Made by a program: the position numbers and the translations under genes
Notes under the pieces: generated by a model
What the model saw: only the letters and a program-made list of their open reading frames with translations
Databases searched by the model: none
Told to the model about the DNA's origin: nothing
Shown: one piece after another, positions 7,132 through 56,413 of the stretch
How positions within the stretch are numbered: the stretch's first letter is position 1
Layout of the letters: each line of letters starts with the position of its first letter
Origin: Paenibacillus sp. FSL R5-0517
GTDB lineage: Bacteria > Bacillota > Bacilli > Paenibacillales > Paenibacillaceae
Assembly (NCBI RefSeq): GCF_037974355.1
Contig: NZ_CP150235.1
Location: 6,138,001-6,202,000 of the forward strand
Reading direction: 5' to 3'
DNA: 64,000 bases

Positions 7132-7147
7132 GGTTCTCATTTTTATA

Positions 7148-8407
7148 TTAGGCTTTCGCCGCTACGTGCTCTTCGATCAATGTGCCTACCAGCGATACGG
7201 CCTCGTCGATCTCTTCTTTGCTCACATACAGGTTCGGAAGCAAACGAATCACATTTGGTCCTGCAGAGACAAACAAAATACCGCGTTTTTGCCCAGCAAG
7301 CACAATATCACCTACCGGCTCAGCACATTCAATACCAACGAGCAATCCCATGCCACGTACTTCCTTCACAAAGGAATTACCTGCCAAGCGATTCCGCAGG
7401 GAGCTCATCAGGTATTCACCCATCTCCGCTGCACGCTCTGGCAAACGATCTTCCAACATCGTTTCGATGGTCGCAATCACAACGGATGAAGCAAGTGGTG
7501 TTCCACCAAAGGTGGTCGCATGACTACCTGGCGTGAACGCATCCCGCAGGAAGCCTTTACCCAGCATCGCGCCTACAGGGAAACCACTGCCGATACCTTT
7601 GGCAACGGTGAACACGTCTGGCTCAATGCCATAATGTTCGTGTGCAAACAATTTACCAGTACGTCCCATTCCAGTCTGCACTTCATCCACAATGAGTAAC
7701 AATCCGTGCTCGTCACACAGTTTCCGTACATGCTTGACGAATTCCGGCTCAACTGGATATACACCGCCCTCGGCCTGAACCATTTCCAGCATAATTGCTG
7801 CCGTCTTAGGTCCAATTGCCGCTTCAAGTGCAGGAATATCATGCAAAGGTACAGTTACAAATCCGGCTGGCAATGGCAAAAATCCTTCTTTCACCTTATC
7901 CTGTCCAGTTGCCGTCAATGTTGCAAGTGTCCGTCCGTGGAAGGACTGGGCAAAGGTGATCACTTCATAGCGATCTGTTCCTTTCACTTTCTGGTGATAA
8001 CGACGTGCTACTTTGATTGCCGCTTCGTTCGCTTCGGCACCACTGTTACAGAAGAACACGGCATCAGCACATGTATTGGCTGTCAGCAGTGCTGCTGCTT
8101 TCTCCTGGCCCGGAATCTGGAACAGGTTGGACACATGCCACAGCTCATCAATCTGAGCTTTCAGCTTGGCACCGACTTTCTCTGGTGCATGGCCCAGGCT
8201 GGTTACAGCGAGTCCGCACATGAAATCTAGATAACGGTTGCCTTGGTCATCCCACAACCAACTTCCTTTACCTTTGACCAGACTGATTGGATAACGCGCA
8301 TATGTTTGAAAAAGCGAGCTTTCCGTCTGTGCCGCTGCACCTGTTGCTGCTGCGCCCGCTACCGCTGTGCCAGAACCTGGCTGTTCGTTGCCTTTTGCCA
8401 TCACCAT
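7148..8407 (-). CDS. argD: Acetylornithine aminotransferase
   Basis: A PLP-dependent class III aminotransferase (419 residues) that turns N-acetylglutamate semialdehyde into N-acetylornithine. The cofactor lysine is in FTVAKGIGSGFPVGAML; FCNSGAEANEAAIK and VDEVQTGMGRTGKLF are the phosphate-loop and cofactor-aspartate motifs. The N-terminal 35 residues are Ala/Gly-rich and probably not part of the fold. The start may be the ATG at 8407 or the ATG two codons later; taggag lies just upstream of both. A related ornithine or GABA aminotransferase is excluded mainly by its position among argB and argF. Confidence 0.93.
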   Translation of the reverse strand: MVMAKGNEQPGSGTAVAGAAATGAAAQTESSLFQTYARYPISLVKGKGSWLWDDQGNRYLDFMCGLAVTSLGHAPEKVGAKLKAQIDELWHVSNLFQIPGQEKAAALLTANTCADAVFFCNSGAEANEAAIKVARRYHQKVKGTDRYEVITFAQSFHGRTLATLTATGQDKVKEGFLPLPAGFVTVPLHDIPALEAAIGPKTAAIMLEMVQAEGGVYPVEPEFVKHVRKLCDEHGLLLIVDEVQTGMGRTGKLFAHEHYGIEPDVFTVAKGIGSGFPVGAMLGKGFLRDAFTPGSHATTFGGTPLASSVVIATIETMLEDRLPERAAEMGEYLMSSLRNRLAGNSFVKEVRGMGLLVGIECAEPVGDIVLAGQKRGILFVSAGPNVIRLLPNLYVSKEEIDEAVSLVGTLIEEHVAAKA

Positions 8408-8493
8408 ATCACTCCTATTGGTTGGTGCAACGGCACTAATTATGAGAACACCTTAACTTTACACTTTTCACTTCGATGCCAGAACAACCTTCC

Positions 8494-8640
8494 GATCGCT
8501 GTTATCCCCGGATTTTTTGATTACCCCTTAAAGGGGAAAATCCGGGGATAGTGTATGCTTCCGAAGTAGCTTTCTTTCAGAAAGCTTTTAGGCGCACGCT
8601 TCGCTTCTTCAGGTTATTTCTGTCCTCTACGTTATTGTGT
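8494..8640. repeat. Intergenic modular repeat, copy A (argB-argD gap)
   Basis: This fills most of the 317-bp gap. The left module, beginning gatcgctgttatccccgg, forms a long hairpin in which ATCCCCGGAT pairs with ATCCGGGGAT around CCCCTTAAAGGGG. The right module has a smaller hairpin (tagctttctttcagaaagc) followed by a cgcttcgcttcttcagg tail. The left module matches copy B (9662-9764) and the right module matches copy C (14101-14190). No ORF and no U-run terminator are evident. Confidence 0.75.
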
Positions 8641-8724
8641 GATGTTCAATCTTCACATAAAAATGCCGTGCACATATTTTTTATTTAATATAAGACCATG
8701 AAGACCCTAGCGCACTGAGAATAA

Positions 8725-9564
8725 TTATTGCATACGGATAATTTTTGTTCCGATAATTTCTCCGCCGAGCACTCGGCTCAGGATCTGGGGTTCGCTTCCG
8801 TCTACGATGATAACCTCACGTACTTGACCATGAATACATGCGATAGCTGCACGCACTTTGGGAATCATGCCACCATAGATTTCTCCGGTTTGGATCATAT
8901 CCTCGATCTCCTGTACAGAGACGGATGGCAGTACTTTTTTCTCGCCGCCTACGTTCTTCATGATGCCAGGAACGTCGGTTACGACAATCATCCGGCTTAC
9001 GCCAAGATGAGACGCCACAGCACCCGCAGCTGTATCTGCGTTGATGTTGTAGCGTTGTCCAGTGGCATCCACACCAACTGGCGCGATAACCGGCATGTAA
9101 CCCATGTTCACGATGCCTTGGATAATCTCTGCATTCACACCCGTGACATCGCCTACCCAGCCGATCTCTGCGTGATTTGTAACAGGTTTAGCCTGGATCA
9201 AACCACCGTCCACGCCGGATAAACCTAGTGCACGACCGCCCACACGTTGGATCAGGCGCACGATCTGTTTGTTGATACTGCCCGCAAGCACCATCTCCAC
9301 TACGTCCAGCACAGGTTCAGTTGTTTTGCGCAGGCCATTAACGAATTCGGTTTCGATACCAAGCTTCGCCAGGTTATCCGAAATTGCAGGGCCTCCACCA
9401 TGCACGATTACCGGCTGTGTGCCCTGAGACTGCAAATCACGCAGATCCGCAAAGAAGGACTCTGGCAATGCCGCCAGTGTGCTGCCTCCACATTTCATGA
9501 CAAACATCTGTTTCTCTGTGCTCGCTTCCGTTGCGGTACTTTTGTTTGGCATTGTTGAATTCAT
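8725..9564 (-). CDS. argB: Acetylglutamate kinase
   Basis: Phosphorylates N-acetylglutamate, usually the feedback-controlled step. Family motifs are FVMKCGGSTL near the N-terminus, VIVHGGGPAIS, and the nucleotide-site words VTDVPGIM and GGMIPKV. I place the start at the ATG at 9564 (279 residues, MNSTMPNKST). It has the ribosome site aaaggagc eight bases upstream and fits the usual length. The open frame extends about 77 codons further upstream, but that part is basic, unlike the family, and overlaps repeat copy B. It is followed by argD after a repeat-filled gap. Confidence 0.95.
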   Translation of the reverse strand: MNSTMPNKSTATEASTEKQMFVMKCGGSTLAALPESFFADLRDLQSQGTQPVIVHGGGPAISDNLAKLGIETEFVNGLRKTTEPVLDVVEMVLAGSINKQIVRLIQRVGGRALGLSGVDGGLIQAKPVTNHAEIGWVGDVTGVNAEIIQGIVNMGYMPVIAPVGVDATGQRYNINADTAAGAVASHLGVSRMIVVTDVPGIMKNVGGEKKVLPSVSVQEIEDMIQTGEIYGGMIPKVRAAIACIHGQVREVIIVDGSEPQILSRVLGGEIIGTKIIRMQ

Positions 9565-9661
9565 GAGGGCAAGCTCCTTTCGTTCAAATATTCTTAAAGG
9601 CTTAACACTTAATTGATGCGATATTCGTTGGCTGACCGTTCCGAATCCGGATCGTTCTTTT

Positions 9662-9764
9662 GATCGCTGTTGTCTCCAGGTTTTTTGATTCCCTTTATAA
9701 AGGGGAAACCCGGAGACAAAGGCGAACGCTTCGCTTCTACAGAATCGATTCCGTCTTCTCCACT
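9662..9764. repeat. Intergenic modular repeat, copy B (argJ-argB gap)
   Basis: It contains the same long-hairpin module as copy A (gatcgctgttgtctccagg, then gattccctttataaagggg), with GTCTCC pairing to GGAGAC. Copy A has ATCCCC and GGGGAT at these places, so both arms changed together. The inner small hairpin of copy A is absent, but the tail cgaacgcttcgcttct is kept. A separate hairpin, AACAGCTTC/GAAGCTGTT, lies at 9824-9848 in the same 313-bp gap. Confidence 0.75.
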
Positions 9765-9877
9765 GCCTTCGCCTCAAAGACCAAATAAAGTTCAATCCTT
9801 ATAGATTTTCTATATATTTACGAAACAGCTTCTTTTAGGGAAGCTGTTAGCTTCAATAGAATAAATGCTAAGACGTA

Positions 9878-11116
9878 TTACGTACGGTATGCTGCGTTAA
9901 TTCGGACGTAGTCATACGTCAGGTCGCAGCCCCAGGCTGTTGCCATTCCTTCGCCGTGGTGCAGATCCACCACAATGCGTACTGTATCGGTCTGCAAATA
10001 GGCCAATGCTGCTTCTTCGTCGAAAACGACTGGACGAGATTGTTCAAGTACCGAGATCTCTCCCAAACGAATATTCACCGTATCCGGGTTCACTGGTTGC
10101 CCTGCACGTCCTACGGCTGCAATAATTCGTCCCCAGTTGGCGTCAGCGCCGAACATGGCGGATTTCACCAGACTGGACCCGATAACCGTTTTGGCAATCG
10201 CTTGTGCAGATTCATCACTTACCGCACCCGTAACTTCTACCTCAACCAGTTTGGTTGCTCCTTCACCATCGCGAGCAATGGCTTTGGCCAGTACTTGGCA
10301 TACATAGGTGAAGCCAGCTGCAAAAGCGTCCCAATCCGGGTGCTTTGTTGTCAGCTCTTCATTGCCTGCATATCCACTGGACATGGCTACCAGCATGTCG
10401 TTTGTACTTGTATCCCCATCGACGGTAATCATGTTAAATGTGTGATTGGTTGCCTGGCGCAGCAGGCGCTGCAACGCTTCTGCACCAATGACCGCGTCAG
10501 AGGTCATAAAAGCGAGCATCGTCGCCATATTCGGATGAATCATTCCCGAGCCTTTGGCGGCACCCGCAATCGTAACCGTCTTGCCGTTAACCAGAACGGA
10601 GACGCAGGCTTCCTTTTTCACCAAATCCGTTGTCAGAATCGCTTGTGAAAATTGTTCCGCCTCATTCGACTCCTTGCCCATATGCGCCGGAAGGCCGGTG
10701 ATGCCTGAATGTACAGCATCCATTTTGAGCAATTCCCCAATGACACCTGTGGAGGCCACAGCAACGTCCTCTTCAGCCACACCCAACTCACGCGCAGCAG
10801 CCGAGCGCATCGCATATGCATCTTCTTCCCCTTGTTGCCCTGTGCATGCATTAGCGTTACCGCTGTTAACGATAACAGCCTGAAGTCGTCCGTTGTTCAA
10901 GCTTTCGCGCGTTACTTTGAGTGGCGCGGCCTGAAACACATTCGTTGTATATACAGCAGCAGCTGTAGCCGGTACATCACATCGGATCGCTCCGATGTCA
11001 TTACGAGAAGTTTTTTTCAATCCGCAGTGAAGTCCACCAGCAGTGAATCCCCCAGGAGTTACAATTGTTCCGTTCTCAATCACGGTAAAACTCTGTTGCT
11101 CCACATTCGTTCCCAT
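9878..11116 (-). CDS. argJ: Glutamate N-acetyltransferase / ornithine acetyltransferase
   Basis: A 412-residue ArgJ that moves the acetyl group from N-acetylornithine back to glutamate, making the pathway cyclic. The precursor cuts itself into two chains just before the nucleophile threonine in HPNMATMLAF (about residue 198); this motif is intact. Other family words are VNSGNANACTG near the N-terminus and the C-terminal WGCDLTYDYVRINA. The ATG at 11116 follows ggggga at good spacing. It lies 135 bp after argC. Whether it is bifunctional (also using acetyl-CoA) cannot be judged, but no argA or argE is present here. Confidence 0.96.
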   Translation of the reverse strand: MGTNVEQQSFTVIENGTIVTPGGFTAGGLHCGLKKTSRNDIGAIRCDVPATAAAVYTTNVFQAAPLKVTRESLNNGRLQAVIVNSGNANACTGQQGEEDAYAMRSAAARELGVAEEDVAVASTGVIGELLKMDAVHSGITGLPAHMGKESNEAEQFSQAILTTDLVKKEACVSVLVNGKTVTIAGAAKGSGMIHPNMATMLAFMTSDAVIGAEALQRLLRQATNHTFNMITVDGDTSTNDMLVAMSSGYAGNEELTTKHPDWDAFAAGFTYVCQVLAKAIARDGEGATKLVEVEVTGAVSDESAQAIAKTVIGSSLVKSAMFGADANWGRIIAAVGRAGQPVNPDTVNIRLGEISVLEQSRPVVFDEEAALAYLQTDTVRIVVDLHHGEGMATAWGCDLTYDYVRINAAYRT

Positions 11117-21052: not shown

Positions 21053-23785
21053 TCATTCAGTCACGTAAGCTACCACTGTTACTTCCTCCACGCTTCCTGC
21101 ATTGTAACCTGTTTTAGCCGCATAACGCACTTCATACGTTCCTGACGCCAAACCTGTGATAGTCGTACTCTCTGCTGTTACCTTTGTCCAGTCACTCGCA
21201 CCTTGCAAGCGGTATTCCATTTCATCGGTTACTCCTGTGATTGTACCGTCATTTCCTGTTGCTGTTACCGCTGTGGAATTCAATCCTTCTGGAGCTTTTT
21301 GATCTTGATTCGGTGCCTGCACTTCTACTGTATACTTCAAGGCTTCTCCCTGGGACTTAAATTCAGTGCCTTGTTGAGCCGTAAAGATTGTAATTGTATA
21401 CGTCCCTACCACTGCGCTTTCTTTAGCCTTTACCGTCAAGTTGATTGTACGTTTTGCTCCTGCTTCAAATCCTACCGTATGAGCCACACCATTGGATTGT
21501 CTCAAGCCATAGAACAAACTATTTCCGCCTATCGGTTGAGCCAGTACAGTTTTATATTGCTCAAATCCTTCGATCCCGAAGTCAGCCTTTTCGCGGTTGC
21601 TATCCGGAATCGTATCCACAGTGCCATTGTTCGTTTGTAATGTAATCTCGCTTAATACATCATTGAACGGGAGTACATTCCCTTCAGCATCTGTCAGTTG
21701 CAACGCTATATACGCACCATCTGAATAGTAATTGTAGCTACTTCCATTCGTGTTTTCTAGCTTGTCTTTACTACCTATGCCGTTAATAGAACTCCAGTTG
21801 AAGCTTACCGCTCCAGTATTCAGATCACTGTTCTCCTGCATCTTAGTTACTGTAGTATCAGGTGCCACATAAGCCGCCACTGTTACTTCCTCCACGCTTC
21901 CTGCATTGTGACCTGTTTTAGCCGCATAACGTACTTCATAGGTTCCTGCAACCAATTCCGTGATTTCAGTTCCTGTCACTGCTGTCCAGGCATTATTAGA
22001 GTCTTTCAAGCGATATTCCATCGCGTCTGTAACGCCTGTAATTGTACCGTCATTTCCTGCTGCAGTTACCGCTGTGGAATCCAGGCCTGTTGGAGCGTCC
22101 TGATTTTCAAGTTCAGGTGCCACATATGCTTCTACTACTACTTCTACCGCCGCTCCAGCGTTGTATCCTGCTTTTGCCGCATAGCGCACTTCATATGTTC
22201 CTGCTGCCAGACCTGTGACTTCTGTTCCAGCCACGGTTGTCCAGTTAGCCGATCCTTTCAGGCGGTATTCCATCGCTGATGTAACCCCTGTAATTTTTCC
22301 ATCATGCCCAACTTCAGTAACCTCTTTAGAGGACAGACCAGTCGGCTTTCCTTGATTAATCAAGCCACCAGTCGAGCCACCACTTGATCCTCCACTCGAA
22401 GATCCACCTGAAGAAGATTCTCCGCTTGAAGCAGTCGTCGTAGATGATGGCGTGTTAACAACAATGCTACCTTTTTGGTCACCTTGAACATTGCTTGGTC
22501 TTACATCGAATGCGGAATTCTGGGAACCGGAATTCAGTGTTACCGTTGTAATATTAGATGCACCTAATATTTTTGAAATTGCGTTTAATACAAGATTCAC
22601 AACTTGCGCACCAGCACTAATTTGGATTGTGTTATTGGCAGCCGTAGCATCCACTTTCACGTCCTGAATTGATCCGCGCTGCAATTGTACAGTCACGGAT
22701 GCGCTGAATACATCAACATCATCAAATTTACCATTTAACTGAATTCTCGCATTAGCTGGCAGTTCTTTTGCCAATTCAATATCAGTAAATCCTTCACCTT
22801 TTAGTTCATTCTCTTCCAATTTGGCAGAAGATTGTACAATCACTTTTTGAGCTGTTGTTGTGCCTTCTGCGACCAAACGAACGGTACCATACTTTTTATT
22901 TACCAGAACGTTGACGAGCACTGAATCTACAAAATGAATAGAGTTCTCACCGCCACCCTCTACATTGGTAGTACCGTGGACTTTTACATTTTTAATGGTT
23001 ACGTCTCCGCTGCCAATACCTGAAGCAAGCAGTAAATCACCTTTAATTTCATAGTTTTCAAGAGTCACGCCAGCCACATTAATAATTACATCACCGTTCA
23101 CAACTTTGGTTTCTTGTGCGCTTCCATATGTTCCTGGTGTATCAATGCTTAAAGTTTCTTTTGCTACCGTCCGGTTGTTTAGAGCAGAATCAATCAGGAC
23201 AATCGCTTCAGCGCGAGTCAGCTGCTTTTGAGCCTGGAACGTGCCATCTGGGTATCCTTTCATGATCCCCTTCTCAATTACTGCTGCAATACTCCCCTGA
23301 CTCCAAGCAGGAATTTTACCTGCATCTTTGAATTGTTTGATTCCTTCAGAGTTACTTGGGTCTAAACCAAGAACACTAGATATCATACTCGCTGCTTCCT
23401 GACGGCTAACATTGGAAGAAGGTTGGAAAGTATTGTCGGAATACCCTTTAACATAACCAGCTTTGAGCGCTTTAGCTACGTCATTATATGCCCAGTTGGA
23501 TGGTGACAAATCTTTAAAATCAGCAGATGCTGTTTCAGAAAATTCAAACAACCGATTCACCAATACGATGAACTCGGCACGTGTAATTGCGCTATTCGGT
23601 TTAACCGAACCATCCTGGTAGCCGTTCAGACTTCCATTTGCAATCCAGCTATCAATTTGTTGTTCCGCCCAGTGTCCTTTAACATCATTTACAGACTGTG
23701 CAGATACAGCACCCATTGATGACAGTGCCATACTTAAGCTCAATGCGCTAACAAATGCTCCACGAAGTTTTTTCTTTTTGCTCAT
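21053..23785 (-). CDS. SLH-anchored cell-surface protein with C-terminal 70-residue repeats
   Basis: A 910-residue exported protein. A signal peptide (KKKKLRGAFVSALSLSMALS, cut near VSAQS) is followed by three SLH domains at about residues 30-205 (DVKGHWAEQQID, SNWAYNDVAKAL and IPAWSQGSIAAVI), which hold it on cell-wall polymer. Residues 215-440 look like a beta-helix or Ig-like region, followed by a Ser/Gly/Thr linker. Three homologous repeats follow (for example TGLDSTAVTAAGNDGTITGV with YEVRYAAKTGHNAG). The third is separated from the first two by an unrelated domain of about 140 residues. The ATG at 23785 has a perfect aggagg. Its ligand is unknown; a structural or adhesive role is inferred. 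Confidence 0.85.
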   Translation of the reverse strand: MSKKKKLRGAFVSALSLSMALSSMGAVSAQSVNDVKGHWAEQQIDSWIANGSLNGYQDGSVKPNSAITRAEFIVLVNRLFEFSETASADFKDLSPSNWAYNDVAKALKAGYVKGYSDNTFQPSSNVSRQEAASMISSVLGLDPSNSEGIKQFKDAGKIPAWSQGSIAAVIEKGIMKGYPDGTFQAQKQLTRAEAIVLIDSALNNRTVAKETLSIDTPGTYGSAQETKVVNGDVIINVAGVTLENYEIKGDLLLASGIGSGDVTIKNVKVHGTTNVEGGGENSIHFVDSVLVNVLVNKKYGTVRLVAEGTTTAQKVIVQSSAKLEENELKGEGFTDIELAKELPANARIQLNGKFDDVDVFSASVTVQLQRGSIQDVKVDATAANNTIQISAGAQVVNLVLNAISKILGASNITTVTLNSGSQNSAFDVRPSNVQGDQKGSIVVNTPSSTTTASSGESSSGGSSSGGSSGGSTGGLINQGKPTGLSSKEVTEVGHDGKITGVTSAMEYRLKGSANWTTVAGTEVTGLAAGTYEVRYAAKAGYNAGAAVEVVVEAYVAPELENQDAPTGLDSTAVTAAGNDGTITGVTDAMEYRLKDSNNAWTAVTGTEITELVAGTYEVRYAAKTGHNAGSVEEVTVAAYVAPDTTVTKMQENSDLNTGAVSFNWSSINGIGSKDKLENTNGSSYNYYSDGAYIALQLTDAEGNVLPFNDVLSEITLQTNNGTVDTIPDSNREKADFGIEGFEQYKTVLAQPIGGNSLFYGLRQSNGVAHTVGFEAGAKRTINLTVKAKESAVVGTYTITIFTAQQGTEFKSQGEALKYTVEVQAPNQDQKAPEGLNSTAVTATGNDGTITGVTDEMEYRLQGASDWTKVTAESTTITGLASGTYEVRYAAKTGYNAGSVEEVTVVAYVTE

Positions 23786-35958: not shown

Positions 35959-36363
35959 TTAATCGCGTAGTTTGTCGACAGCATTGTAGGTTCGTCCGCC
36001 TACATTGTTGTTATCCTTCTGACCTACTTCACGAGCTGCCCCTGCTAAGTCTTTCGTCAATCGAATACGACAAGAGTCACACATATGACCTTCACGAATC
36101 AATGTTCCGCACACTTCACAAGGATACATCATATTCGGGGCGTTCTCGATGGAAATTCGTCCCTCTCGGATGAACTTGGTAATGGTTTTGATTGAAACTT
36201 CTGTTGCATCAGATAGTTCCTGTATGTTGGTGCCTTTGTTTTCGCGCAAATAATCTACACAGATCTGATATTCCGCTTCCATCTCCTTAATACAATTCGA
36301 GCATACATCTCGAAAATTCAAAGCATATAATTTACCACAGCGAGGACAATTACCTAGATTCAT
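35959..36363 (-). CDS. yvyF: YvyF-like flagellar operon protein
   Basis: 134 residues. Two zinc-ribbon-like pairs at the N-terminus (CPRCGKLYALNFRDVCSNC), a central helix-turn-helix-like segment (LSDATEVSIKTITKFIREGR) and a second CxxC pair set (CEVCGTLIREGHMCDSC). This matches the TIGR03826/YvyF family that precedes flgM in Bacillus. Function is unknown; nucleic-acid binding is plausible. Confidence 0.9.
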   Translation of the reverse strand: MNLGNCPRCGKLYALNFRDVCSNCIKEMEAEYQICVDYLRENKGTNIQELSDATEVSIKTITKFIREGRISIENAPNMMYPCEVCGTLIREGHMCDSCRIRLTKDLAGAAREVGQKDNNNVGGRTYNAVDKLRD

Positions 36364-36458: not shown

Positions 36459-36502
36459 AAAAGAGGGGCGCAGGATGCACATATACGCAACCCTGCTCCC
36501 CA
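36459..36502 (-). terminator. Terminator of the FN3 giant gene
   Basis: GGGGAGCAGG and CCTGCGCCCC pair around a 16-base loop, followed by TCTTTTG on the minus strand; it lies just after the stop at 36514. Confidence 0.85.
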
Positions 36503-36513
36503 ATTTTATATTC

Positions 36514-39500
36514 CTAATTCAATGTTCTAATACTTATTACAGAAGACCATATGCTTGTGTTCTGATCGTTGAATGCGCGAATGCGATATTTATGCAAACT
36601 GGACGGTAACAAGTCAGAATGAATAAATGTTGCATCACTGACCGTCGCCACAATTTGCCCATCGGCTTCAATTTCGTAAAACGAAGCCCCCATAACCGCA
36701 CCCCATGTCAGAATAACGTTTGTTCTGTCGGAAGTCCCCTTCAGCACAGGTGTAGTTAATTGAGTCATTCCCGTTATCATCTCACTCCAAACTCCTGCAC
36801 CAGAAGCATTTTTAGCACGAATTCGGAAGGTATGTTCCGTATTTGGTGCAAGTCCGCTCTTCGTATAAGCGACTCCACTCACGGCAACCACTGTACCATC
36901 AATCTCCAGATCATATCCTGTAGCTCCAGTTGCAGCAGTCCATCTCAGCGCGATAGCCGCTGTGGTTGCAGAGTTAATACTTAAACCTGAGACACTGGCA
37001 GGCAACGTAGTTTGGGACAGTATTGCTGTCCAGGCACTCACATTAGTATCGGTCAGGGAACGTATACGGTACTTATGCGCCGTACCACCAAGTAATCCAT
37101 TATGGACATATAAGAGATCACTCACAGTTGCAACCACTATGCCATCTGCTTCAATCTCATATTTTGTTGCACCAGCAACTTCATTCCATGTCAGCGTAAC
37201 TGCCGTTTCTTCAGGTACAGCTTTCAGCGTTGTTGGTACATTTAATTGGGTCGAAGCGGTTACGACCTCACTCCAGCTACCAATGCCAGCAGCATTTTTG
37301 GCACGAATGCGGAAGGTATGATCTGTATTGGCCAGAAGTGCTGTTTTGGTATAAGCCAGAGCCGACACAGCAACGATTTTACCATCGATCTCAAGATCGT
37401 ATCCTGTTGCTCCCGTAACCGCATTCCACTTCATAGCAATGGTTACTGTTGTTGCAGAATTCATACTCAATCCGGTCACACTGCCTGGTATAGTGCTTTG
37501 AGTCAAGACTGTAGACCAAGCACTACTGTTCTTATCCGTTAATGCACGCACACGATAGGTGTGCGATGTTCCTGCAAGCAAATCACTATGAACATATGAG
37601 GGATCAGTTACTGCAGAGACAATTGCTCCATCTGCCTCAATCTCATAATTGGTTGCATCTTTGATATCAAGCCAATTCAAAGTAATAGCGGTTTCCTCTG
37701 ATGTTGCTTTCAGAGCAGGTGTGTTTAACTGAGTTGTAACATTTGTTACATCTCCCCAAGCTCCAGCCCCAGCAGTATTTTTGGAACGAACACGGAATGT
37801 ATGATCCGTATTGGCGATAAGTCCCGTTTTGGTGTAAACCACTCCACTAACAGGTACCACCGTGCCATCAATTTCAAGGTCATATCCCGTCGCTCCTGAG
37901 ACTGCGTTCCACTTCAGAGCAGCAGCTGTGTTCGTTATGCTTGTTACCGTTAACCCGGTAACAGAACCAGGCAACGTATTTTGTGTCAAGACTGCAGTCC
38001 AGGCTCCAACATTGGTTCCGGTTAGAGCGCGTACGCGGTATTTATGCGCCGTTCCAGCTATGAGATTATTGTGAGTATAAGTAGGCTCCGTAACAATACC
38101 CACTACGACTCCATCCGCTTCAATCTCATATTTGGTTGCATCTTTAACTTCAGGCCATGTCAAGGTAACCGCTTGTTCCTCAGAAGAAGCCTTCAGAACA
38201 GGTGTGTTCAGTAAAGTTGTGCCATCTACAATCTCACTCCATATACCTGCACCTGCTGTATTTTTAGAACGAATACGGAACGTGTGATCCGTATTTGTCA
38301 CAAGACCACTCTTCGTATAAGCTACTCCTGTTACTGGTACAACTGTACCATCGATCTCAAGATCATATCCTGTTGCTCCCGTTACTGCCGTCCATTTTAA
38401 GGAAATGGCTACATTGGTAACAGAACTAATACTTAAACCAGTAACTGATGCAGGTATCGTACTTTGCGTCAGCACCGCAGTCCAGGCACCTGTATTAGAG
38501 TCCGTCAGTGCACGTACACGATATTTATGCGCCGTTCCTGGAAGCAAGCTAGTGTGCACATATTTCGGTTCGCTAATTGTTCCAGTAACGACTCCATCTG
38601 CTTCAATCTCATACTTGGTTGCATCTGTTACATCTGCCCATGTCAATGTAATCGCTGTTTCTTCCGAGGAAGCTTTTAGAACAGGGGTATTCAATAACGT
38701 TGTGCCACTTACCCCGTCACTCCAAGTCCCAGCACCTGCCGCATTTTTGGAGCGAACGCGGAACGTATGATCCGTATTAGCCGCAAGTCCGGTCTTGTTG
38801 TATGTTAATCCAGTAGCGGCTACTACCGTGCCATCAATTTCAAGATCATAACCTGCTGCTCCGGTTACAGCATTCCATTTCAAACCCATTGTTGTGTTCG
38901 TTACAGAGGTAATGCCCAACCCTGTTACTGAACCTGGTAGTGTATTTTGATTTAAAACAGCAGTCCATGCGCCATTGTTTGTATCTGTCAGTGCTCTTAC
39001 ACGATACTTATGCGCTGTTCCTGGCTGGAGACCTGAATGCACATATTTTGGCTCATCAACTGTTGCGATAGTTGATCCATCTGCTTCAATCTCATACTTG
39101 ATCGCATCTGATACATCTGCCCATGTTACTGTAACAGCAGTCTCTTCCGAGGAAGCTTTTAAAACAGGGGTATTCAACAATGTTGTACCATCAATGATAT
39201 CACTCCACGCTCCGGCACCTGCCGTATTTTTAGAGCGAACGCGGAACGTATGATTCGTATTGGCTGCAAGACCTGTCTTGTTGTAGGTTAATCCACTTAC
39301 AGCTATTACCGTGCCATCAATCTCCAAGTCGTAACCCGTTGCTCCAGTTACAGCATTCCATTTAAGAGCGATAGCGACATTGGTTGCAGAGGTTACACTC
39401 AACCCTGTGACTGAACCCGGTAAAGTATTCTGAGTGAGAAGTACAGTCCACGGGCTAACGTTCATCTCCGTCAGGGCTCTTACACGATACTTATGCGTTG

Positions 39501-41991
39501 TTCCTGGGATCAAATTCTCGTGCGTGTAGACTGGCGCCGTAACCGTAGCTACAACAATACCATCAGCCTCCACTTCATATTTGGTTGCATCAGTAACATC
39601 TGCCCAAGTTACAGTAATTGCATCTTCTTGGGAAGATGCTTTCAGAACAGGCGTATTAAGTTGAGTCGTGCCACTTACCACGTCACTCCACACACCCACA
39701 CCTGCCGTATTTTTGGAACGTATACGGAATGTATGGTCTGTATTCGCTGCAAGACCACTCTTCGTATATGTTAAACCAGTAACTGGAACTACCACTCCAT
39801 CAATCTCCAAGTCATATCCAGAGCTACCGGTTACTGCACTCCATTTCAAGGAAATTGCGGCGTTCGTTGTGGATGTTATACTGAGACCTGATACCGCTGC
39901 GGGCAATGTACTCTGTGTCAGAACAGTTGTCCAAGCACTTATGTTAGTGTCAGTAGCCACACGAACACGATATTTATGAGAAGTACCTGGTAATATATTT
40001 CCATGTGTGTAGTTTGATTCACTTACATTTGCAACAATCACACCATCTGCTTCAACTTCATATGCAGTAGCATCTGGTATGGATGTCCACGTCAATGTGA
40101 TTGCTGTTTCCTCAGAGGATGCCTTCAATATAGGCAAATTAAATTGTGTACGACCTGTTACTATTTCGCTCCAGGCTCCTGCACCTGCAACGTTCTTCGA
40201 ACGAATACGGAAAGTGTGCTCCGTGTTTCCGACGAGTCCACTCTTCGTATAACTTGTAGCTGTCAAAGAAATCGGGGTGCCGTCAATTTCCAAATCGTAG
40301 CCTGTAGCACCGGTAACCGCATTCCATTTTACTGTAATGGCTGTATTGGTGACTGCACTCACATTCAACCCACTGACAGAGTCAGGCAAGGTATTTTGCG
40401 TTACTACTGATGTCCAAGCACTTGTATTCGTCTCATTGATTGCCCGCACACGATATTTATGCGCTGTGCCCGGTGTCAGATTGGTGTGGTTAAAGATTGG
40501 AGCTTCTAAACCTGAAGAAACAACTCCATCTGCTTCAATCTCATACGAAGTTGCGCCTTCAATGGGAGCCCATACAAGTACAACTTCCTCTGCTGTGACA
40601 TTAGACTGAACTACGGGTGTACTCAGTTGAGTGGTGCCCGATACTGGATCACTCCAACTTCCTGTCCCACCAGCATTTTTGGATCTGATTCTGAAGGTAT
40701 ATTCTGTATTGGCTGCAAGTCCAGTCTTGTTGTATGTTGTTCCTGTCACCGCAACAACTGAACCATTGATCTCCAGATCATATCCAGTGGCTCCCTTAAC
40801 AGCAGTCCAGGATACAGACAATTTATTCAATGTAGCATCTGTGATTTTCAAACCATCTGCACGATTAGGTACTGTCAATTGACTTAGTGGTTTACTCCAT
40901 GAACTCTCATTGTCAGTTGAGAATGCTCTCAGCACATAGGTATGTGTTGAATTGGCCTCCAAATCGTCATGCTCATATGAGTTCACATTGCCCAATTCAA
41001 TAGGTTCTCCTCCGTCAATTCGCAATTGATATCGATCTGCAAATTCAACGGATTTCCAATTCAATGTATTCTTCCCCTCTTCACCTTTTACGGATAAGAT
41101 CGGTTTTTCTAGCAAAGTTCTCAGCGAGTATGTATCACTCCACTCACCTGCACCTCTTGGATTAACACCACGTACTCTGTAAGTATAGTTCGTATTATTT
41201 CTATAAGGACTACTTGTATAGTCCAGACCATAGAATGGACCTTTAGTTACACCATTTTCTTCAATCTCATACTGAACCGCTTGTTGTGCAGCTGACCAGT
41301 TAAGGTTGATTGTCGCATCATTTGCAGTAGCTACCAGTCCAGTAGGTATAGCAGGAACTGTAGTAATTGGCTCCTTTGTTCCCGGCTCTTTTTCAAAACT
41401 GAATGATTCTGCCTTACGTGTGTAATATGGATTAAGGTTAGATACAAAATCTACCACAGCACCTGTATCCGCACTGATCACCAAACTAAGTTGAGAGGCT
41501 TCATAACTTTGTACATATCTAGGGGTTTCCATTCCAAATTCATCTACTCTGGAACTGTTCCAAACACCTACATTCATACCTGATTGTCTATATTCCATGG
41601 TACTGTAATATTCCCAAACCTCGGAAAAGTCAACGATAAATGCGTTAGTCACTTGCCCAGTATAGGTAGAAGTATATTTACCAAATGTTACATTGGTCAT
41701 ATCTTCGAGAGTTCCCCTGATAGACTGGCTTCTTGAGAATGAATATCCTGTTGATGAAATGCTGTATGATCTCGTCCAGCCCAGATCAACCTGTTTCTGA
41801 TTCACCATCAGATTCCCATTCTGTTCTGATAATACAAAGCGATAATCATTACTCGATGCGATAATTCTATTACTCGTTGCGGCATCTGCCCGGTTTCCCC
41901 CATACACACCAAACTGTCCGAATACCAGCATGAATACTAGTAGACGGACAGTCCATAAGTAAAATCCGTTTTTTCTTTTTCCTGCGACCAC
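36514..41991 (-). CDS. Giant secreted protein with 20 fibronectin type III domains
   Basis: 1,825 residues. A signal peptide (hydrophobic LLVFMLVFGQFGVYGG, cut near ADA-ATS) is followed by a unique domain of about 175 residues rich in Ser, Tyr and Trp, then 20 FN3 domains to the very C-terminus. The first two are divergent. The other 18 form nine alternating pairs: type A (ATGYDLEIDG, then HTFRIRSKN) and type B (TKYEIEADG, then HKYRVRAL). No LPXTG, SLH, LysM or catalytic motif was seen, so it is probably secreted or loosely held. I choose GTG at 41991: aaggggag lies seven bases upstream, while the TTG at 42009 has no ribosome site. It sits between yvyF and comFC. Adhesion or matrix function is a guess. 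Confidence 0.85.
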   Translation of the reverse strand: MVAGKRKNGFYLWTVRLLVFMLVFGQFGVYGGNRADAATSNRIIASSNDYRFVLSEQNGNLMVNQKQVDLGWTRSYSISSTGYSFSRSQSIRGTLEDMTNVTFGKYTSTYTGQVTNAFIVDFSEVWEYYSTMEYRQSGMNVGVWNSSRVDEFGMETPRYVQSYEASQLSLVISADTGAVVDFVSNLNPYYTRKAESFSFEKEPGTKEPITTVPAIPTGLVATANDATINLNWSAAQQAVQYEIEENGVTKGPFYGLDYTSSPYRNNTNYTYRVRGVNPRGAGEWSDTYSLRTLLEKPILSVKGEEGKNTLNWKSVEFADRYQLRIDGGEPIELGNVNSYEHDDLEANSTHTYVLRAFSTDNESSWSKPLSQLTVPNRADGLKITDATLNKLSVSWTAVKGATGYDLEINGSVVAVTGTTYNKTGLAANTEYTFRIRSKNAGGTGSWSDPVSGTTQLSTPVVQSNVTAEEVVLVWAPIEGATSYEIEADGVVSSGLEAPIFNHTNLTPGTAHKYRVRAINETNTSAWTSVVTQNTLPDSVSGLNVSAVTNTAITVKWNAVTGATGYDLEIDGTPISLTATSYTKSGLVGNTEHTFRIRSKNVAGAGAWSEIVTGRTQFNLPILKASSEETAITLTWTSIPDATAYEVEADGVIVANVSESNYTHGNILPGTSHKYRVRVATDTNISAWTTVLTQSTLPAAVSGLSITSTTNAAISLKWSAVTGSSGYDLEIDGVVVPVTGLTYTKSGLAANTDHTFRIRSKNTAGVGVWSDVVSGTTQLNTPVLKASSQEDAITVTWADVTDATKYEVEADGIVVATVTAPVYTHENLIPGTTHKYRVRALTEMNVSPWTVLLTQNTLPGSVTGLSVTSATNVAIALKWNAVTGATGYDLEIDGTVIAVSGLTYNKTGLAANTNHTFRVRSKNTAGAGAWSDIIDGTTLLNTPVLKASSEETAVTVTWADVSDAIKYEIEADGSTIATVDEPKYVHSGLQPGTAHKYRVRALTDTNNGAWTAVLNQNTLPGSVTGLGITSVTNTTMGLKWNAVTGAAGYDLEIDGTVVAATGLTYNKTGLAANTDHTFRVRSKNAAGAGTWSDGVSGTTLLNTPVLKASSEETAITLTWADVTDATKYEIEADGVVTGTISEPKYVHTSLLPGTAHKYRVRALTDSNTGAWTAVLTQSTIPASVTGLSISSVTNVAISLKWTAVTGATGYDLEIDGTVVPVTGVAYTKSGLVTNTDHTFRIRSKNTAGAGIWSEIVDGTTLLNTPVLKASSEEQAVTLTWPEVKDATKYEIEADGVVVGIVTEPTYTHNNLIAGTAHKYRVRALTGTNVGAWTAVLTQNTLPGSVTGLTVTSITNTAAALKWNAVSGATGYDLEIDGTVVPVSGVVYTKTGLIANTDHTFRVRSKNTAGAGAWGDVTNVTTQLNTPALKATSEETAITLNWLDIKDATNYEIEADGAIVSAVTDPSYVHSDLLAGTSHTYRVRALTDKNSSAWSTVLTQSTIPGSVTGLSMNSATTVTIAMKWNAVTGATGYDLEIDGKIVAVSALAYTKTALLANTDHTFRIRAKNAAGIGSWSEVVTASTQLNVPTTLKAVPEETAVTLTWNEVAGATKYEIEADGIVVATVSDLLYVHNGLLGGTAHKYRIRSLTDTNVSAWTAILSQTTLPASVSGLSINSATTAAIALRWTAATGATGYDLEIDGTVVAVSGVAYTKSGLAPNTEHTFRIRAKNASGAGVWSEMITGMTQLTTPVLKGTSDRTNVILTWGAVMGASFYEIEADGQIVATVSDATFIHSDLLPSSLHKYRIRAFNDQNTSIWSSVISIRTLN
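36517..40860 (-). repeat. Nine tandem FN3 A/B pairs, about 483 bp per unit
   Basis: Coding repeats with a period of about 161 residues. Units in the middle are the most alike (for example NTPVLKASSEE recurs at nearly every junction), and those at the ends diverge, the pattern expected of unequal crossing-over. Assembly collapse or copy-number variation is likely here. Confidence 0.9.
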
Positions 41992-42307
41992 TTTTGTTCT
42001 CCCCTTCAAAAGATATGTTGTGCCACACCCTTGCTGTCACCTGTGGTGAACGGCAAAACTATCTATTCTGCACGAGAAAACGAAATCCTCTTTTTTACAT
42101 GTAAAAAATTTCTTATTACACTTTCATTTATGATTTCACTAAACAACTATATTTCAAACGGTTAAATATGAAAAGAGGAATTCATATTTGTGAAGTTATT
42201 AATAAGAGAACACATTTTCCTATCTATTAGAAAATAAAGCGTAAGTTGTGTATCCAGGGAGACTTAAAAAATATTTAAACAGTAGCTCAATAGACTGATT
42301 TTGCCTA
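41992..42307. other. Gap between comFC and the FN3 giant, with an 18-bp palindrome
   Basis: No gene. TTTTTTACATGTAAAAAA at 42091-42108 is a perfect palindrome 100 bases before the FN3 gene start. I saw no clear comFC terminator, so readthrough from comFC is possible. Confidence 0.5.
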
Positions 42308-43204
42308 TTAGGATCTTGCCAGTGTTAGTGTGTAAATCTCAACCGGAATTCCCATGGTAAAACCAGCATTTAAGATAACCCGCCCACAAGCATCCAAGGT
42401 ACTGCCTGTTGTGTATATATCATCGATCAGCAGGATCTGTATGGGTTCGTCATGTGACATGCCCGTATGTGTTGACAGATAAGATTCCCTGTATAGCTCT
42501 TCAATTAACTTCATGCCATCGGGGTTGATGGAAAAAGCGTTCTTCATCGTTTCGATACGCTCACCGCGTGATTTGAAGCTTTGTTTGGTGGTGTTGATCT
42601 GGCGCTGCAACAGATCAACGATAGGCAGGCGGCAGGCGGTGGCAAGCCCAGCAGCCAGTCGCTCCGCCTGATTGAAGCCGCGCTCAACCAGGCGCTCGCT
42701 GCTCACGGGAACATAGGTGACCACGGCAGGCCGCCATTGCGGCTTCGTTTGTTGAGCAGGCGTGGCGAGATGAGCCACGGGGGCTGGGGGTTCTTTTCCC
42801 AAAGCAGAATTCTGTTCCTCGCTCATCGCTTGAAAGGCTTGAATCAACAGCGCGGTTAAGAGCGGCGCGTATCGTTCATGGCCTCTGAATTTGTACATGC
42901 CAATCCACTCCTTCATAAGATGGGTGTACTGTACGGCGCTGCGGTTGAGGATAAAAGAACGATTTTGCATATGTGGACGAGCACAGTCCGGGCACCCAAC
43001 GCCCCGACCACAACGCAGGCAGCGGATGGAACGAATCCATGGAATCTGATGCACACAACGTGGGCATATACCCGGATAGAGCGAGGATAGGATCGCCCGA
43101 GTGCCACATGTCAGACAAGTCGCTCCAGGTGGGGCGAGCAGATGATGGAGGCGTTCGGTAAGGTACTGAGCGTGATCGGTAATGTTGCTGAGCCAGTTAA
43201 ACAT
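42308..43204 (-). CDS. comFC: ComF-family competence protein (phosphoribosyltransferase-like)
   Basis: 298 residues. The N-terminus carries paired cysteines (CLTCGTRAILSSLYPGICPRC and CLRCGRGVGCPDC), a zinc-ribbon arrangement. The C-terminal phosphoribosyltransferase loop is ILLIDDIYTTGSTLDACG, and ERGFNQAERLA precedes it. ComFC is needed for DNA uptake or processing during transformation. I choose the ATG at 43204 (ggaggt nine bases upstream); the ORF start at 43222 lies before the ribosome site. A long insert rich in Pro, Gln and Ala lies around residues 120-145. It follows comFA by 125 bp, with no comFB between. Confidence 0.92.
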   Translation of the reverse strand: MFNWLSNITDHAQYLTERLHHLLAPPGATCLTCGTRAILSSLYPGICPRCVHQIPWIRSIRCLRCGRGVGCPDCARPHMQNRSFILNRSAVQYTHLMKEWIGMYKFRGHERYAPLLTALLIQAFQAMSEEQNSALGKEPPAPVAHLATPAQQTKPQWRPAVVTYVPVSSERLVERGFNQAERLAAGLATACRLPIVDLLQRQINTTKQSFKSRGERIETMKNAFSINPDGMKLIEELYRESYLSTHTGMSHDEPIQILLIDDIYTTGSTLDACGRVILNAGFTMGIPVEIYTLTLARS

Positions 43205-43329
43205 AATCGTGTAAACCTCCAATCTGGTCTGGAGAATCTAATGGTATGTACGGAAATATACGCTGTGTGTACTTTGAAATATGGATGCTAATTCATATAT
43301 TTAATATTTAGGCAGATCACAATTAACAA

Positions 43330-52630: not shown

Positions 52631-55600
52631 CTATAGATATCCTAACTTGTCCAAAACTCGTTTTAACATGACTGCTGCCTGTGCACGAGTTGCATTTCCC
52701 TGAGGTTCGAATGTTCTGGCTGTCATGCCTTGAATGATTCCCTCCTGAACCGCTTTGGCAACAGAATCCTTGGACTGGATTTTGTTACTGTCCTTGAACT
52801 TGGATAGAGTGGAAGCAGCCGAAGATTGCAGCGAAACAGTCTTGCCTCCGTACTTCATAGCCCGCACCATCATAAGTGCCATCTGCTCACGCGTGATGGG
52901 GCGATCCGGCTTAAACGTACCATCGGTATTTCCAGTAATGATGCCCGCTTCAGCTGCAGCACCGATATAGGCACTTGTCACACTACCGCTACGTACATCC
53001 TGGAAACGACTTGCTGCGGTCGGTTCTCCATTCAGTCCAAGACCTCTAGCGACCAATTCAGCAAATTCTGCACGTGTAATGTTCTCATTCGGTCGGTAGA
53101 AGCTACCCGTAGGTGTGTTAATAATCCATTTGGCAGAGAGCTCCTTAATGACCTCACTAGCCCAGTGTGACGCTGTATCCGGATAACTAACGATGTTGTT
53201 AACAGGGACTACCGACTGATTGCCATTCAGTTGTCCTCGGACAACTACACCACCTGTCGTATTTTTAAAGGAACTAGGTACATTCGATAACCTAAATGTA
53301 ACTGGATCGATATACGTAAATCCGGATGTTACACTTGGGGTATTGGCAGCCAATTGCATGGCCAGTTGGCTTTTGACATTCTGATCTACACGTTGATCGC
53401 TCGTTCCATTACCGGCATACAAATATACATCCGTATAATTGCCAAGCTTCTGCGCTCCTGCACCTGCAATCAAGCCTTCCATCGTCCCCGATGAAGATAC
53501 TGGTACCGTCTCTAACTGAACGTATAAGGATGGAACTGCTGCTCCTGTCGTTGTACTTGTGTTTGACGTTCCTACACTCCGACTCATAGCCGCCATATCT
53601 AGATTAGACAGTGGCACCGTCCAGAGGAGATCGCCATATTTCACACCTATAGTGCCTGTGCGATAACTTGCAGCAATCTGAGTCAGTGCATTTAATGGGA
53701 ACCCAACATACGCAGCCGATTCACTATCCGGAATCTCGAATACCACCGGCTGAGTCAATTTCCCGTTTGCTCCAGCGTATTCAAAGGACTGAATCAACTT
53801 GGTTGCATCCACGTTGAATTGACGAGTCGGGCGATTAAAGTGGGACATCGCAGATACAGCAGAAGCCGTAGTATTATTCATCACAAGTAAAGACTGACCA
53901 TAGCTTGATGCATCCAATTCGGCCAACCAGGAAGGACGGTTTCCCGACTGATTATTGTTCGAACTATTATTCGTCTGTTGCAACGTAAGTGGACCAAATG
54001 CTGTTATCGTGACATTCGACGCATCCCGCAACGGCACTGCCCCAGGTACATAACTCACCGTTCCCGTCTGAGTAGCTGTCGATGTTACTGCTGAAGTATC
54101 CACTTTCAACGTCACCACAGAGCCAGAAGCTAAAGCAGACAATACAGTTGTGGTTGAATTACCAATCACTACACTGAACTGAGATGCTGTTAGTGCAGTC
54201 TGGGACTGGATTGAATCACGGAAATTAATCTGAACCGTGTCTCCCTGAAGCGTAGCCGACAGGATTTTGCCATTCCCATATGTGTACGTTACTGGAGTCA
54301 GATTGAGATATCCTGCTGGATTATTGTTCAGGTCCGTTAATCGCAAGGCTCCAGGTACATAGGATAACGATATATTTTGTGTATCCTTCACCGCTGAAGC
54401 CAGCGTTAACGTGACCAGATCATTTTCGATCTCAGAATCATTAACGAAGACTGGCTTGCCATCAACCAGAACAGAATATTGGCTGTTGAGCGGTTTATTT
54501 GTCGTGTTCAGTGGTTCATTGTAACGCACCCATAACTTGTTACCACTCACCTCAGCACTCTTGAACTCAGGTGGTTTGGTATCGATGGAATTGCGGACAT
54601 AGAAGCCGCTAAATCCAGCAAGAGCCTGTCCACGTGTATCTTTTACAGGCCAAGAACCTGGCGTGTAAGCAACACGAACGACTTCACCATCCATAATGGA
54701 CCGACTGAGGTTCAATGTCACGACTGAGCTGCCATTGATCGATATGTTATTGATACCTACAGCCGACTGATCCGCAGTTACGCTGAACTGTCTCGCAGCA
54801 TCACTTGAAGTGATATATACCGTCTCAGGGTAGTACAACGTAATTGTACTGTAATATACGTTTCCTTCTCGCGGCTTGGACATAACAGAATCTAAACCGT
54901 TCTCCACATCTCGTGCGCCAAAAGCAGCCGCAGCATTGGAAGATTGATCTGTAAGACGATTACCTGTTGTACCGGGTGTATATGAAATTCGCACAACTTG
55001 TCCTACCGCTACACCCGTATCCAAGACCACATATACACTGTCACCTGAAATATAAGTGGAGCTGACATTCCTCTTTTCACCATTTACAGTGACAGCATAC
55101 GTACTACTCAGCGAATTAGTGCTGTACAGCCACTCATCATATGTTAGGCGAATGGTGTTATTGCTATGCATCTTAGCATTCTTCAACACAGGTGCAGTTG
55201 TATCTGCACTTAATGTTTTAAAGGCCCATGATGTAGACCCATTAAGACCTGTAAATGTATTTCCTGCTTTATCACGAAACGCATTGGCTGGGATGTCTAC
55301 CACGTAATTTGTGTTGCTATCCAATGCGTTGGTAGGTGTAATCAGCAATTGTCTATTGTTTGAACTATTTATGACTGTCTTAGATGAAACAGTTGCTCCA
55401 TTTGATTTTTTGAGCGTTACATTCTGAATGTAATTCGTATCAAGTTCCTTGTTGAATGTAACTGTTAAATTTCCCGTTAATGGTGCATTGGTAGTACCGT
55501 TTGCGGGAGATACAGTAGATACCATAAGAGACGTCGGATCGGATATGACATTGAATCCCCAAACATTCCCATTAATTGCACTGATATCATTCTCATTGCT

Positions 55601-56413
55601 ATCTCGCAAATAACCTTCTGGCATTACGATGTAATATGTAGTGTTGTTGTTCCAGTTATTCGTGGGAACGATCGTAATCGTATTGGTTCCAAAACCTGTA
55701 ATTCGAGGTGCTCCTGCGTTTACTGGAATCTGCTCAAATACTGTACCACCAACTCTTCCCTGATAAATAATGAGATTGCCTCTACCTGCGGTTACCGGCT
55801 TATCGAACGTCATTACTACCTTGGTTGAAAGGGATACCATTGCTGCGTTATCAGGAACTCTACTCACAAGGGAAGTTGAGCCTAGTCCCAGCGTACTGAA
55901 GGTCCACTCTTTGTTAGTCAGTCCCGGAAATGCAGTATTGTCTGCGTAAACAAATGATTTATTATCTATCTCTACATAGTATGTTGCTCCCGGTAGAGTC
56001 TTTCCCAGTGTAATCGTCACTCGTAGGCCAGTAGCTGGTACAGGTGTATTGTCTCCCGCATCGGGTGTCGTAGGGTCTGTAATCGGTGGTGTGGGATCAA
56101 TCACAACTTGGTCACTGGATACCAGCACCGAACCCATCGTTGTATTGTCATCCAAACGTTTAATCACGATTGAACTTTGTGTACCAGTTGCCTTCTGAAC
56201 AGGTTTATCAAAATCAATAACGAATGGAACTGAACTATCCACATTCGTTCCTTTCACAGCAGGAACAGTATTCGTTATTCCATTTGCACTTAATGCGTGT
56301 GCCGCATATGCTTCCCGCTCAACTCCACTCCAACCCGTAAGCCAGCCTTGAGCAGTTAGCATGACGATCAAGAGTCCAAGTATGCCTTTTCTTGCGATTC
56401 TCTTCGATTTCAC
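52631..56413 (-). CDS. Large SLH-anchored surface protein with Big_5/SwmB-like repeats
   Basis: 1,260 residues. A signal peptide (GILGLLIVMLTAQGWLTGWS, cut near AYA) is followed by three Big_5-type Ig-like domains (residues 45-400; SPANGTTNAPLTGNLTVTFN and FDKPVTAGRGNLI are typical). Four or so SwmB-like units (405-830) follow, marked by repeats of VRISYTPG, VRVAYTPG and ISLSYVPG. A region of about 250 residues follows, then three SLH domains (1085-1260: TRAEFAELVARGLGL, ITREQMALMMVRAM and TRAQAAVMLKRVL). The start is GTG at 56413 with aaggggga. It is anchored to the wall by its C-terminus; the ligand is unknown. Confidence 0.88.
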   Translation of the reverse strand: MKSKRIARKGILGLLIVMLTAQGWLTGWSGVEREAYAAHALSANGITNTVPAVKGTNVDSSVPFVIDFDKPVQKATGTQSSIVIKRLDDNTTMGSVLVSSDQVVIDPTPPITDPTTPDAGDNTPVPATGLRVTITLGKTLPGATYYVEIDNKSFVYADNTAFPGLTNKEWTFSTLGLGSTSLVSRVPDNAAMVSLSTKVVMTFDKPVTAGRGNLIIYQGRVGGTVFEQIPVNAGAPRITGFGTNTITIVPTNNWNNNTTYYIVMPEGYLRDSNENDISAINGNVWGFNVISDPTSLMVSTVSPANGTTNAPLTGNLTVTFNKELDTNYIQNVTLKKSNGATVSSKTVINSSNNRQLLITPTNALDSNTNYVVDIPANAFRDKAGNTFTGLNGSTSWAFKTLSADTTAPVLKNAKMHSNNTIRLTYDEWLYSTNSLSSTYAVTVNGEKRNVSSTYISGDSVYVVLDTGVAVGQVVRISYTPGTTGNRLTDQSSNAAAAFGARDVENGLDSVMSKPREGNVYYSTITLYYPETVYITSSDAARQFSVTADQSAVGINNISINGSSVVTLNLSRSIMDGEVVRVAYTPGSWPVKDTRGQALAGFSGFYVRNSIDTKPPEFKSAEVSGNKLWVRYNEPLNTTNKPLNSQYSVLVDGKPVFVNDSEIENDLVTLTLASAVKDTQNISLSYVPGALRLTDLNNNPAGYLNLTPVTYTYGNGKILSATLQGDTVQINFRDSIQSQTALTASQFSVVIGNSTTTVLSALASGSVVTLKVDTSAVTSTATQTGTVSYVPGAVPLRDASNVTITAFGPLTLQQTNNSSNNNQSGNRPSWLAELDASSYGQSLLVMNNTTASAVSAMSHFNRPTRQFNVDATKLIQSFEYAGANGKLTQPVVFEIPDSESAAYVGFPLNALTQIAASYRTGTIGVKYGDLLWTVPLSNLDMAAMSRSVGTSNTSTTTGAAVPSLYVQLETVPVSSSGTMEGLIAGAGAQKLGNYTDVYLYAGNGTSDQRVDQNVKSQLAMQLAANTPSVTSGFTYIDPVTFRLSNVPSSFKNTTGGVVVRGQLNGNQSVVPVNNIVSYPDTASHWASEVIKELSAKWIINTPTGSFYRPNENITRAEFAELVARGLGLNGEPTAASRFQDVRSGSVTSAYIGAAAEAGIITGNTDGTFKPDRPITREQMALMMVRAMKYGGKTVSLQSSAASTLSKFKDSNKIQSKDSVAKAVQEGIIQGMTARTFEPQGNATRAQAAVMLKRVLDKLGYL

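Follow-up and report, generated by a model that had tools for sequence, protein, structure and literature searches.

A predicted secreted tandem-FN3 giant between comFC and yvyF of Paenibacillus: a candidate released stalk with an exchangeable head

Between comFC and yvyF of Paenibacillus sp. FSL R5-0517 lies a single gene for a predicted secreted protein of 1825 residues, built from a unique N-terminal domain (NTD) followed by 20 FN3 domains, whose head and middle differ between close relatives and whose two ends are conserved. We propose, with a probability of roughly 0.58, that the product is a released 190-kDa FN3 stalk that would be produced as cells enter stationary phase and would display an exchangeable head kept polymorphic by recombination. 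The DNA analysed is a stretch of 64,000 nucleotides (the window; positions 6,138,001 to 6,202,000 of contig NZ_CP150235.1) from a genome of 6.92 Mb in a single contig; judged from the names of its relatives, the host belongs to the Paenibacillus amylolyticus group. Genomes are given by G numbers, G000 being this one. The features of the locus, in window coordinates, are:

35959-36363: yvyF, flanking the giant gene.
36465-36501, minus strand: intrinsic terminator, a hairpin with a T-rich tail (-28 kcal/mol for a 77-nt stretch, z -3.4, equalled by 1 of 200 shuffles).
36498-42308, minus strand: cassette present or absent between species, its edges taken from empty sites.
36514-41991, minus strand: secreted FN3 giant of 1825 aa, a single intact gene of 1825 codons with a GTG start.
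36514-37290, minus strand: conserved tail covering roughly the final 770 nt (last B, A and B domains), with 77-100% identity in 60-nt bins against G049, G002 and G050.
36520-41355, minus strand: 20 FN3 domains, residues 213-1824, by profile segmentation.
36520-40869, minus strand: nine A/B FN3 pairs of ~161 aa each, residues 375-1824, by profile segmentation.
41356-41880, minus strand: unique NTD, residues 38-212 (175 aa), all-beta in the model, polymorphic.
41881-41991, minus strand: signal peptide, residues 1-37, kept between allele types; the inferred cleavage site, between ADA and A, was placed by eye.
41998-42007, minus strand: ribosome-binding site GAAGGGGAGA, preceding the GTG.
42063-42091, minus strand: SigH-type promoter AGAGGATTT-N11-GCAGAATAG (AGGA-N17-GAAT), conserved upstream of carriers.
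42093-42110, minus strand: AT-rich palindrome TTTTTTACATGTAAAAAA, which immediately precedes the -35 element and is partly conserved.
42308-43222: comFC, flanking the giant gene.

The GTG at 41991, seven bases past GAAGGGGAG, is likely the start codon and yields the 1825 residues; an alternative TTG start would extend the reading frame to 36514-42009 on the minus strand. The mature protein has a calculated mass of about 190 kDa, a pI of 5.2 and no cysteine. By inspection, the N-terminus has the properties of a Sec signal, with a positively charged start, the most hydrophobic 19-mers at residues 10-30 and the sequence RADA before the alanine at which the chain would be cut. Iterated two-profile segmentation resolved 20 FN3 domains, two divergent ones and then 18 arranged as nine A/B pairs, and Pfam fn3 (PF00041) matched 17 stretches (E 1.1e-94, 311 bits), which places the units in the FN3 family. 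An earlier sequence-only reading of this DNA had described a secreted giant with a unique NTD and 18 of its 20 FN3 domains in nine pairs of about 161 residues, lying exactly between the two flanking genes, and on all these points our analysis reproduces it. The giant has no C-terminal sorting signal or hydrophobic tail, LPXTG-like strings being confined to the array interior, and the Pfam scan found no SLH domains; the features of a sortase- or SLH-anchored adhesin are thus absent. Three relatives (G038, G005 and G054) lack one base in a run of 5-6 G (YGGN codons; L039-L062), which breaks the frame within the signal peptide; this is probably an assembly error, with decay or slippage as alternatives.

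A structure prediction of the NTD, which the earlier reading had called for, gave an all-beta model (mean pLDDT 85.4, pTM 0.81) for which no clear fold match was found and which points to no function. A Pfam search up to E 10 found nothing for the domain, and its only NCBIfam match is at chance level (E 0.028; 13.8 bits, where 150 is required). It occurs once in this genome. Within the genus it was matched in 31 of 75 genomes at E <= 0.001, 25 of them strongly (E 6.7e-35 or better; the carriers); of the six genomes with weak matches, five hold paralogues of ~370 aa and one (G060) holds a fragment in that search. Across the family, matches come from 44 of 394 genomes, spread over 7 of 19 genera, and an even draw across the order gave 37 matches in 392 genomes, one of them from another family and covering only half the profile. 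An orphan all-beta domain can thus be named that is nearly confined to one family here and is found in two secreted protein architectures. In the second of these, the secreted ~370-aa paralogues, the NTD-like part is the C-terminal half; unlike the giant, these proteins lack FN3 and have a different N-terminal half, which in one of five scanned gave a weak PPC-like match (E 0.21).

Six copies from other genera were inspected: five giants of 1390-2303 aa (G210, G268, G346, G138 and G299) and one 336-aa protein with one FN3 (G258). As in the giant of the window, the NTD homologue of the five is N-terminal to a tandem FN3 array, with 16-26 FN3 matches; in contrast, theirs lie at unrelated loci and no SigH-type promoter was found. 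Searches of the 18-19.5 kb around all six copies gave no match at E <= 1e-6 to comFA, comFC, yvyF or flg genes, and the G299 copy adjoins genes resembling hpf and secA.

When 24 of the 25 genus carriers (G008 left out) were aligned over the sequence preceding the gene, two conserved islands emerged, one AGAGG(A/G)ATT-like and one GAATAG-like, with 11 nt between them in the 9-mer frame. All 24 share the AGG of the -35 element and the GAAT of the -10 element without variation, and no column of the 11-nt spacer is invariant (mean top-base frequency 0.67, versus 0.94 and 0.92 in the islands). The SigH motif, as given in PMC12456013, consists of AGGA and GAAT at 17-18 nt spacing, and on this promoter motif the giant gene would be SigH-controlled. 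The copy of G014, at an unrelated locus, keeps both islands in differing surroundings (site score 15.25 of 16.75), and full-score sites precede three of the seven ~370-aa paralogues tested (G026, G018 and G061), the other four scoring 14.5-15.25. The site in the window scores 16.0, reached by 0.7% of 2000 random window stretches of 410 nt; 8.5% of these reach 14.5. Eight of the 25 carriers have only 14.0-14.5 or a best site elsewhere (G050, G037, G035, G038, G002, G036, G008 and G064), G064 having the conserved site together with a better-scoring one elsewhere and six further carriers scoring 14.5, and a convincing SigH-type site is absent in G008 and in all six other-genus copies. Among the presumed SigH control genes of this genome (spoVG 16.0, spo0A 15.25, spoIIAA 14.5) only spoVG stands clear, spo0A and spoIIAA being near background, and this slightly reduces our confidence in the combined reading. 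The palindrome TTTTTTACATGTAAAAAA is perfect or nearly so in most carriers, the exceptions being G064, G035, G038, G010 and G014; it is a possible operator or A-tract element.

The repeat array proved less uniform than the highly alike tandem units of the earlier description. The A/B pairs of this copy share only 48-78% identity with one another (internal mean 66.8%), and the DNA-level array detected by TRF spans only 38105-39849, with 74% matches. The internal pairs are on average 93-94% identical to their positional counterparts in G041 and G068 (89-94% for the first and last pairs); since pairs that are unlike inside this copy are orthologous in order with those of two relatives, the array is old and stable here. 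The recent expansion that had been suggested therefore fails for this copy, and fits some relatives: within single arrays of G010, G014, G021, G056 and G066 the internal pairs are 90-95% alike, which points to recent homogenisation or expansion there. Variation in unit number, which had been considered possible between strains, was seen between species. The 20 complete arrays among the 25 strong carriers (the remaining five are incomplete owing to contig ends, frame changes or truncation) hold 20 (n=7), 18 (n=3), 16 (n=6), 14 (n=3) or 12 (n=1) FN3 domains, always an even number.

Comparison with G049, the nearest relative of G000 on the flank tree (three genes beside the cassette), locates a block of replaced sequence. 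In 60-nt bins, identity is 87-98% in comFC, 47-70% in the outer spacer, 93-98% over promoter, leader and signal peptide, and 42-75% in the NTD; it recovers to 80-100% about 770 nt before the stop codon and remains high into yvyF. In 240-nt bins the gene is 51-78% identical (three bins gapped) until the last three bins, at 81, 90 and 95%, versus 90-98% along the whole gene for G000 and G068. The right edge of the swapped block lies near 37290, and is the same against G049, G002 and G050. Between G000 and G049 the NTDs share 53% amino acid identity, with dN 0.43 and dS 2.69 against a flank dS of 0.095; the corresponding NTD and flank dS values are 2.59 and 0.135 for G000 and G002, and 1.82 and 0.075 for G041 and G040, all values above 1 being saturated. 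Such synonymous difference goes beyond fast protein evolution alone, and import of a divergent allele can explain it. NTD types, named after the flank tree had been seen, are 86-99% identical within and at most 83% between types (type a comprising G000, G041 and G068). Tests on the flank tree reject monophyly of types a, b and e (p-AU 3.6e-6, 4.6e-6 and 4.8e-4) and not that of type d (p 0.225). The two halves of the NTD can also disagree, G041 and G050 being 62% identical in one and 89% in the other. In 18 of 19 compared pairs, those with a defined dS, NTD dN/dS is 0.03-0.35, which argues that the types are maintained as functional proteins. Allele exchange across species is thereby indicated for a secreted repeat protein of a soil sporeformer.

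The position between comFC and yvyF, genes that are adjacent in Bacillus, is shared by 21 of the 25 strong genus carriers with both flanks read; the copies of G057 and G073 lie beside comFC at a contig end, and those of G014 and G008 lie elsewhere. yvyF is present in 74 of 75 genus genomes. The earlier reading had advised a comparison of comFC-yvyF intervals across the genus. Of 40 other intervals, from a survey that left out twelve further non-carriers, 32 have no insert, with gaps of 182-318 bp; the interval of G014 is among these. A gene for a secreted LysM-like protein occupies six, that of G008 included. In G003 the interval retains a relic of the giant (roughly its final 200 residues, at 91.9% identity), and in G071 it contains other genes. 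In the 47 genomes with a yvyF at least 85% identical to that of the window, the gene is carried by 23 and the site is vacant in 22, and the relic and the other cargo account for one each; the presence pattern needs 9 changes on the tree, 8 of them forced by starred branches. The left edge of the cassette lies at or just past the comFC stop, with weak homology for up to 40 nt more in three of the closest empty sites, and the right edge about 16 nt past the stop of the giant in the closest empty sites and about 24 nt past it in most others. The closest empty sites hold ~110 unrelated bases in place of the cassette. The locus thus offers defined conserved ends together with an empty state, a relic and other occupants.

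From its location the sequence-only reading had suggested a link to motility, surface sensing or DNA uptake, possibly with SigD control, and an accessory to flagella, swarming or DNA uptake that shares the regulation of its neighbours would agree with the comFC-yvyF position of most carriers and with the paralogues of G003, G054, G068 and G073, which sit in the flagellar cluster beside fliD/S/T-like genes. Even so we find it improbable. The giant has its own promoter footprint and terminator, and close relatives keep comFC, yvyF and flgM without it, nearly half of the 47 being empty at the site. No SigD-like site (TAAA-N15-GCCGATAA-like) stands above shuffles, the best reaching 8 of 12 and being equalled by 173 of 200 shuffles, in a scan of modest sensitivity, since hag itself scores only 10 of 12 (as do flgM and flgL) and fliD 8. 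ComK boxes (AAAA-N5-TTTT) were found in 0 of 24 carrier upstreams of 200 nt, and Spo0A boxes likewise in none. Homologues at unrelated loci, which the earlier reading had itself set against the functional link, exist in G014, G008 and the six other-genus genomes, so that its own objection applies in part, 21 of the 25 genus copies being at the comFC-yvyF position. A location beside flagellar genes can mislead.

An alternative with more substance, though still unlikely in our judgement, is a scaffold that binds polysaccharides or surfaces, in which the FN3 array would be a spacer and the head a carbohydrate-binding module, aiding extracellular enzymes or attachment to plant cell walls, with swapping that tracks the type of substrate. 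The FN3 units are similar in sequence to those of chitinase A1 (1k85) and a GH31 enzyme (6m76), the NCBIfam exoglucanase CbhB model matches the array (far under its cut-off), and an all-beta head would suit such a role; against it, Pfam shows no catalytic or known carbohydrate-binding domain in the giant and the head has no clear fold match. The combination of a conserved secretion end with a variable part, and of alleles swapped between close relatives, recalls polymorphic toxins or kin-killing systems with exchangeable heads. Here, however, the variable part is the N-terminal head and repeats and not a C-terminal toxin, no toxin family is among the Pfam or NCBIfam matches, and a likely immunity gene is missing: neither spacer has an open reading frame of more than 45 codons. 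Those present span 40-45 codons; the left spacer has two, both antisense, and the right spacer has one on the sense strand, within sequence largely common to empty sites. We consider the toxin reading very improbable, and equally so that of a nearly neutral repeat gene that spreads selfishly, for which the patchy presence, the G003 relic and the use of the site by other genes elsewhere would speak; against it, dN/dS is below 0.4 in all 18 NTD pairs with a defined dS, the promoter footprint is conserved, the cassette holds no mobile gene, and searches of plasmid, phage and viral collections gave no match.

We therefore return to the released stalk with an exchangeable head. The cassette appears self-contained, with its own SigH-type promoter, 5' leader, signal peptide and terminator, and expression is predicted at the transition to stationary phase and in early sporulation, not together with flagella or competence. 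The protein would be released unanchored, as a rod of 20 FN3 domains with the 175-residue all-beta head at its N-terminus. An FN3 domain is about 3.5 nm long, so the rod may measure some 70 nm; placed in the extracellular matrix or on surfaces nearby, it could serve as a stalk whose variable head, together with the first FN3 units, would bind the ligand. Rod length (5 to 9 pairs) would be set by unequal crossing-over between A/B pairs, and homologous recombination between species would swap the displayed part, using as arms the promoter and signal-peptide end on one side and the last FN3 domains on the other; the whole cassette is also gained and lost. We infer a role in adhesion or recognition under diversifying selection, against which the absence of both an anchor and a partner gene counts. 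More speculative, and doubtful as it stands, is the idea that the giant serves recognition or typing within Paenibacillus communities. Cells would release the long stalk when growth ends, with interchangeable heads that define types common to several species, their diversity being upheld by frequency-dependent selection (self-recognition, or evasion of phages or predators), and the comFC-yvyF gap would be a hot spot for secreted proteins under SigH control.

Secreted bacterial proteins with FN3 arrays are already known. The giant shares with secreted glycosidases sequence-related, spacer-like FN3 domains on a secreted protein, and differs from them in its lack of a catalytic domain, its 20 units in A/B order and its unique head. 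Allele-swapped surface antigens and other polymorphic secreted proteins have conserved ends, a variable exposed middle and recombination between lineages; in these general traits the giant is like them, but it has no anchor, toxin or immunity gene, and is an FN3 rod in a soil sporeformer. Within the literature searched, three things are apparently new: an orphan NTD in two secreted architectures, an exchangeable head and middle with conserved ends, and the repeated use of the comFC-yvyF gap by secreted proteins with SigH-type sites. How polymorphism of secreted proteins is upheld outside pathogens becomes testable at this locus.

Some further observations concern neighbouring genes. The LysM-like occupant of the comFC-yvyF gap is found in six genomes of another subclade (L099, L101, L102, L103, L107 and L108) as a secreted protein of 149-155 aa, its C-terminus judged LysM-like by eye, with a SigH-type site ~205-210 nt upstream of the gene (score 15.0-15.5 in five, 13.5 in one). 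The gap of G071 holds 7.8 kb of other genes (L093, about 3500-10640), mostly on the opposite strand and including an open reading frame with an ATPase-like GPPGTGKT motif. In G021, G010 and G042 (L053, L056 and L062) flgN and flgK are only 46-65% identical to those of the window, versus 86-94% for yvyF, hinting that flagellar hook-associated genes may also have been replaced there. The fliT-hpf interval is a second variable surface-protein site: it holds the ~370-aa NTD paralogue in G054, G003, G073 and G068 (L046 650-1771, L067 6173-7321, L068 4825-6015 and L069 5882-7030) and an SLH-domain protein in the window (21053-23785). Upstream of the degS-degU region, at 52631-56413, the window also encodes a 1260-aa protein in which SLH domains are combined with Big_5 and 'putative flagellar system-associated' repeats (PF13753).
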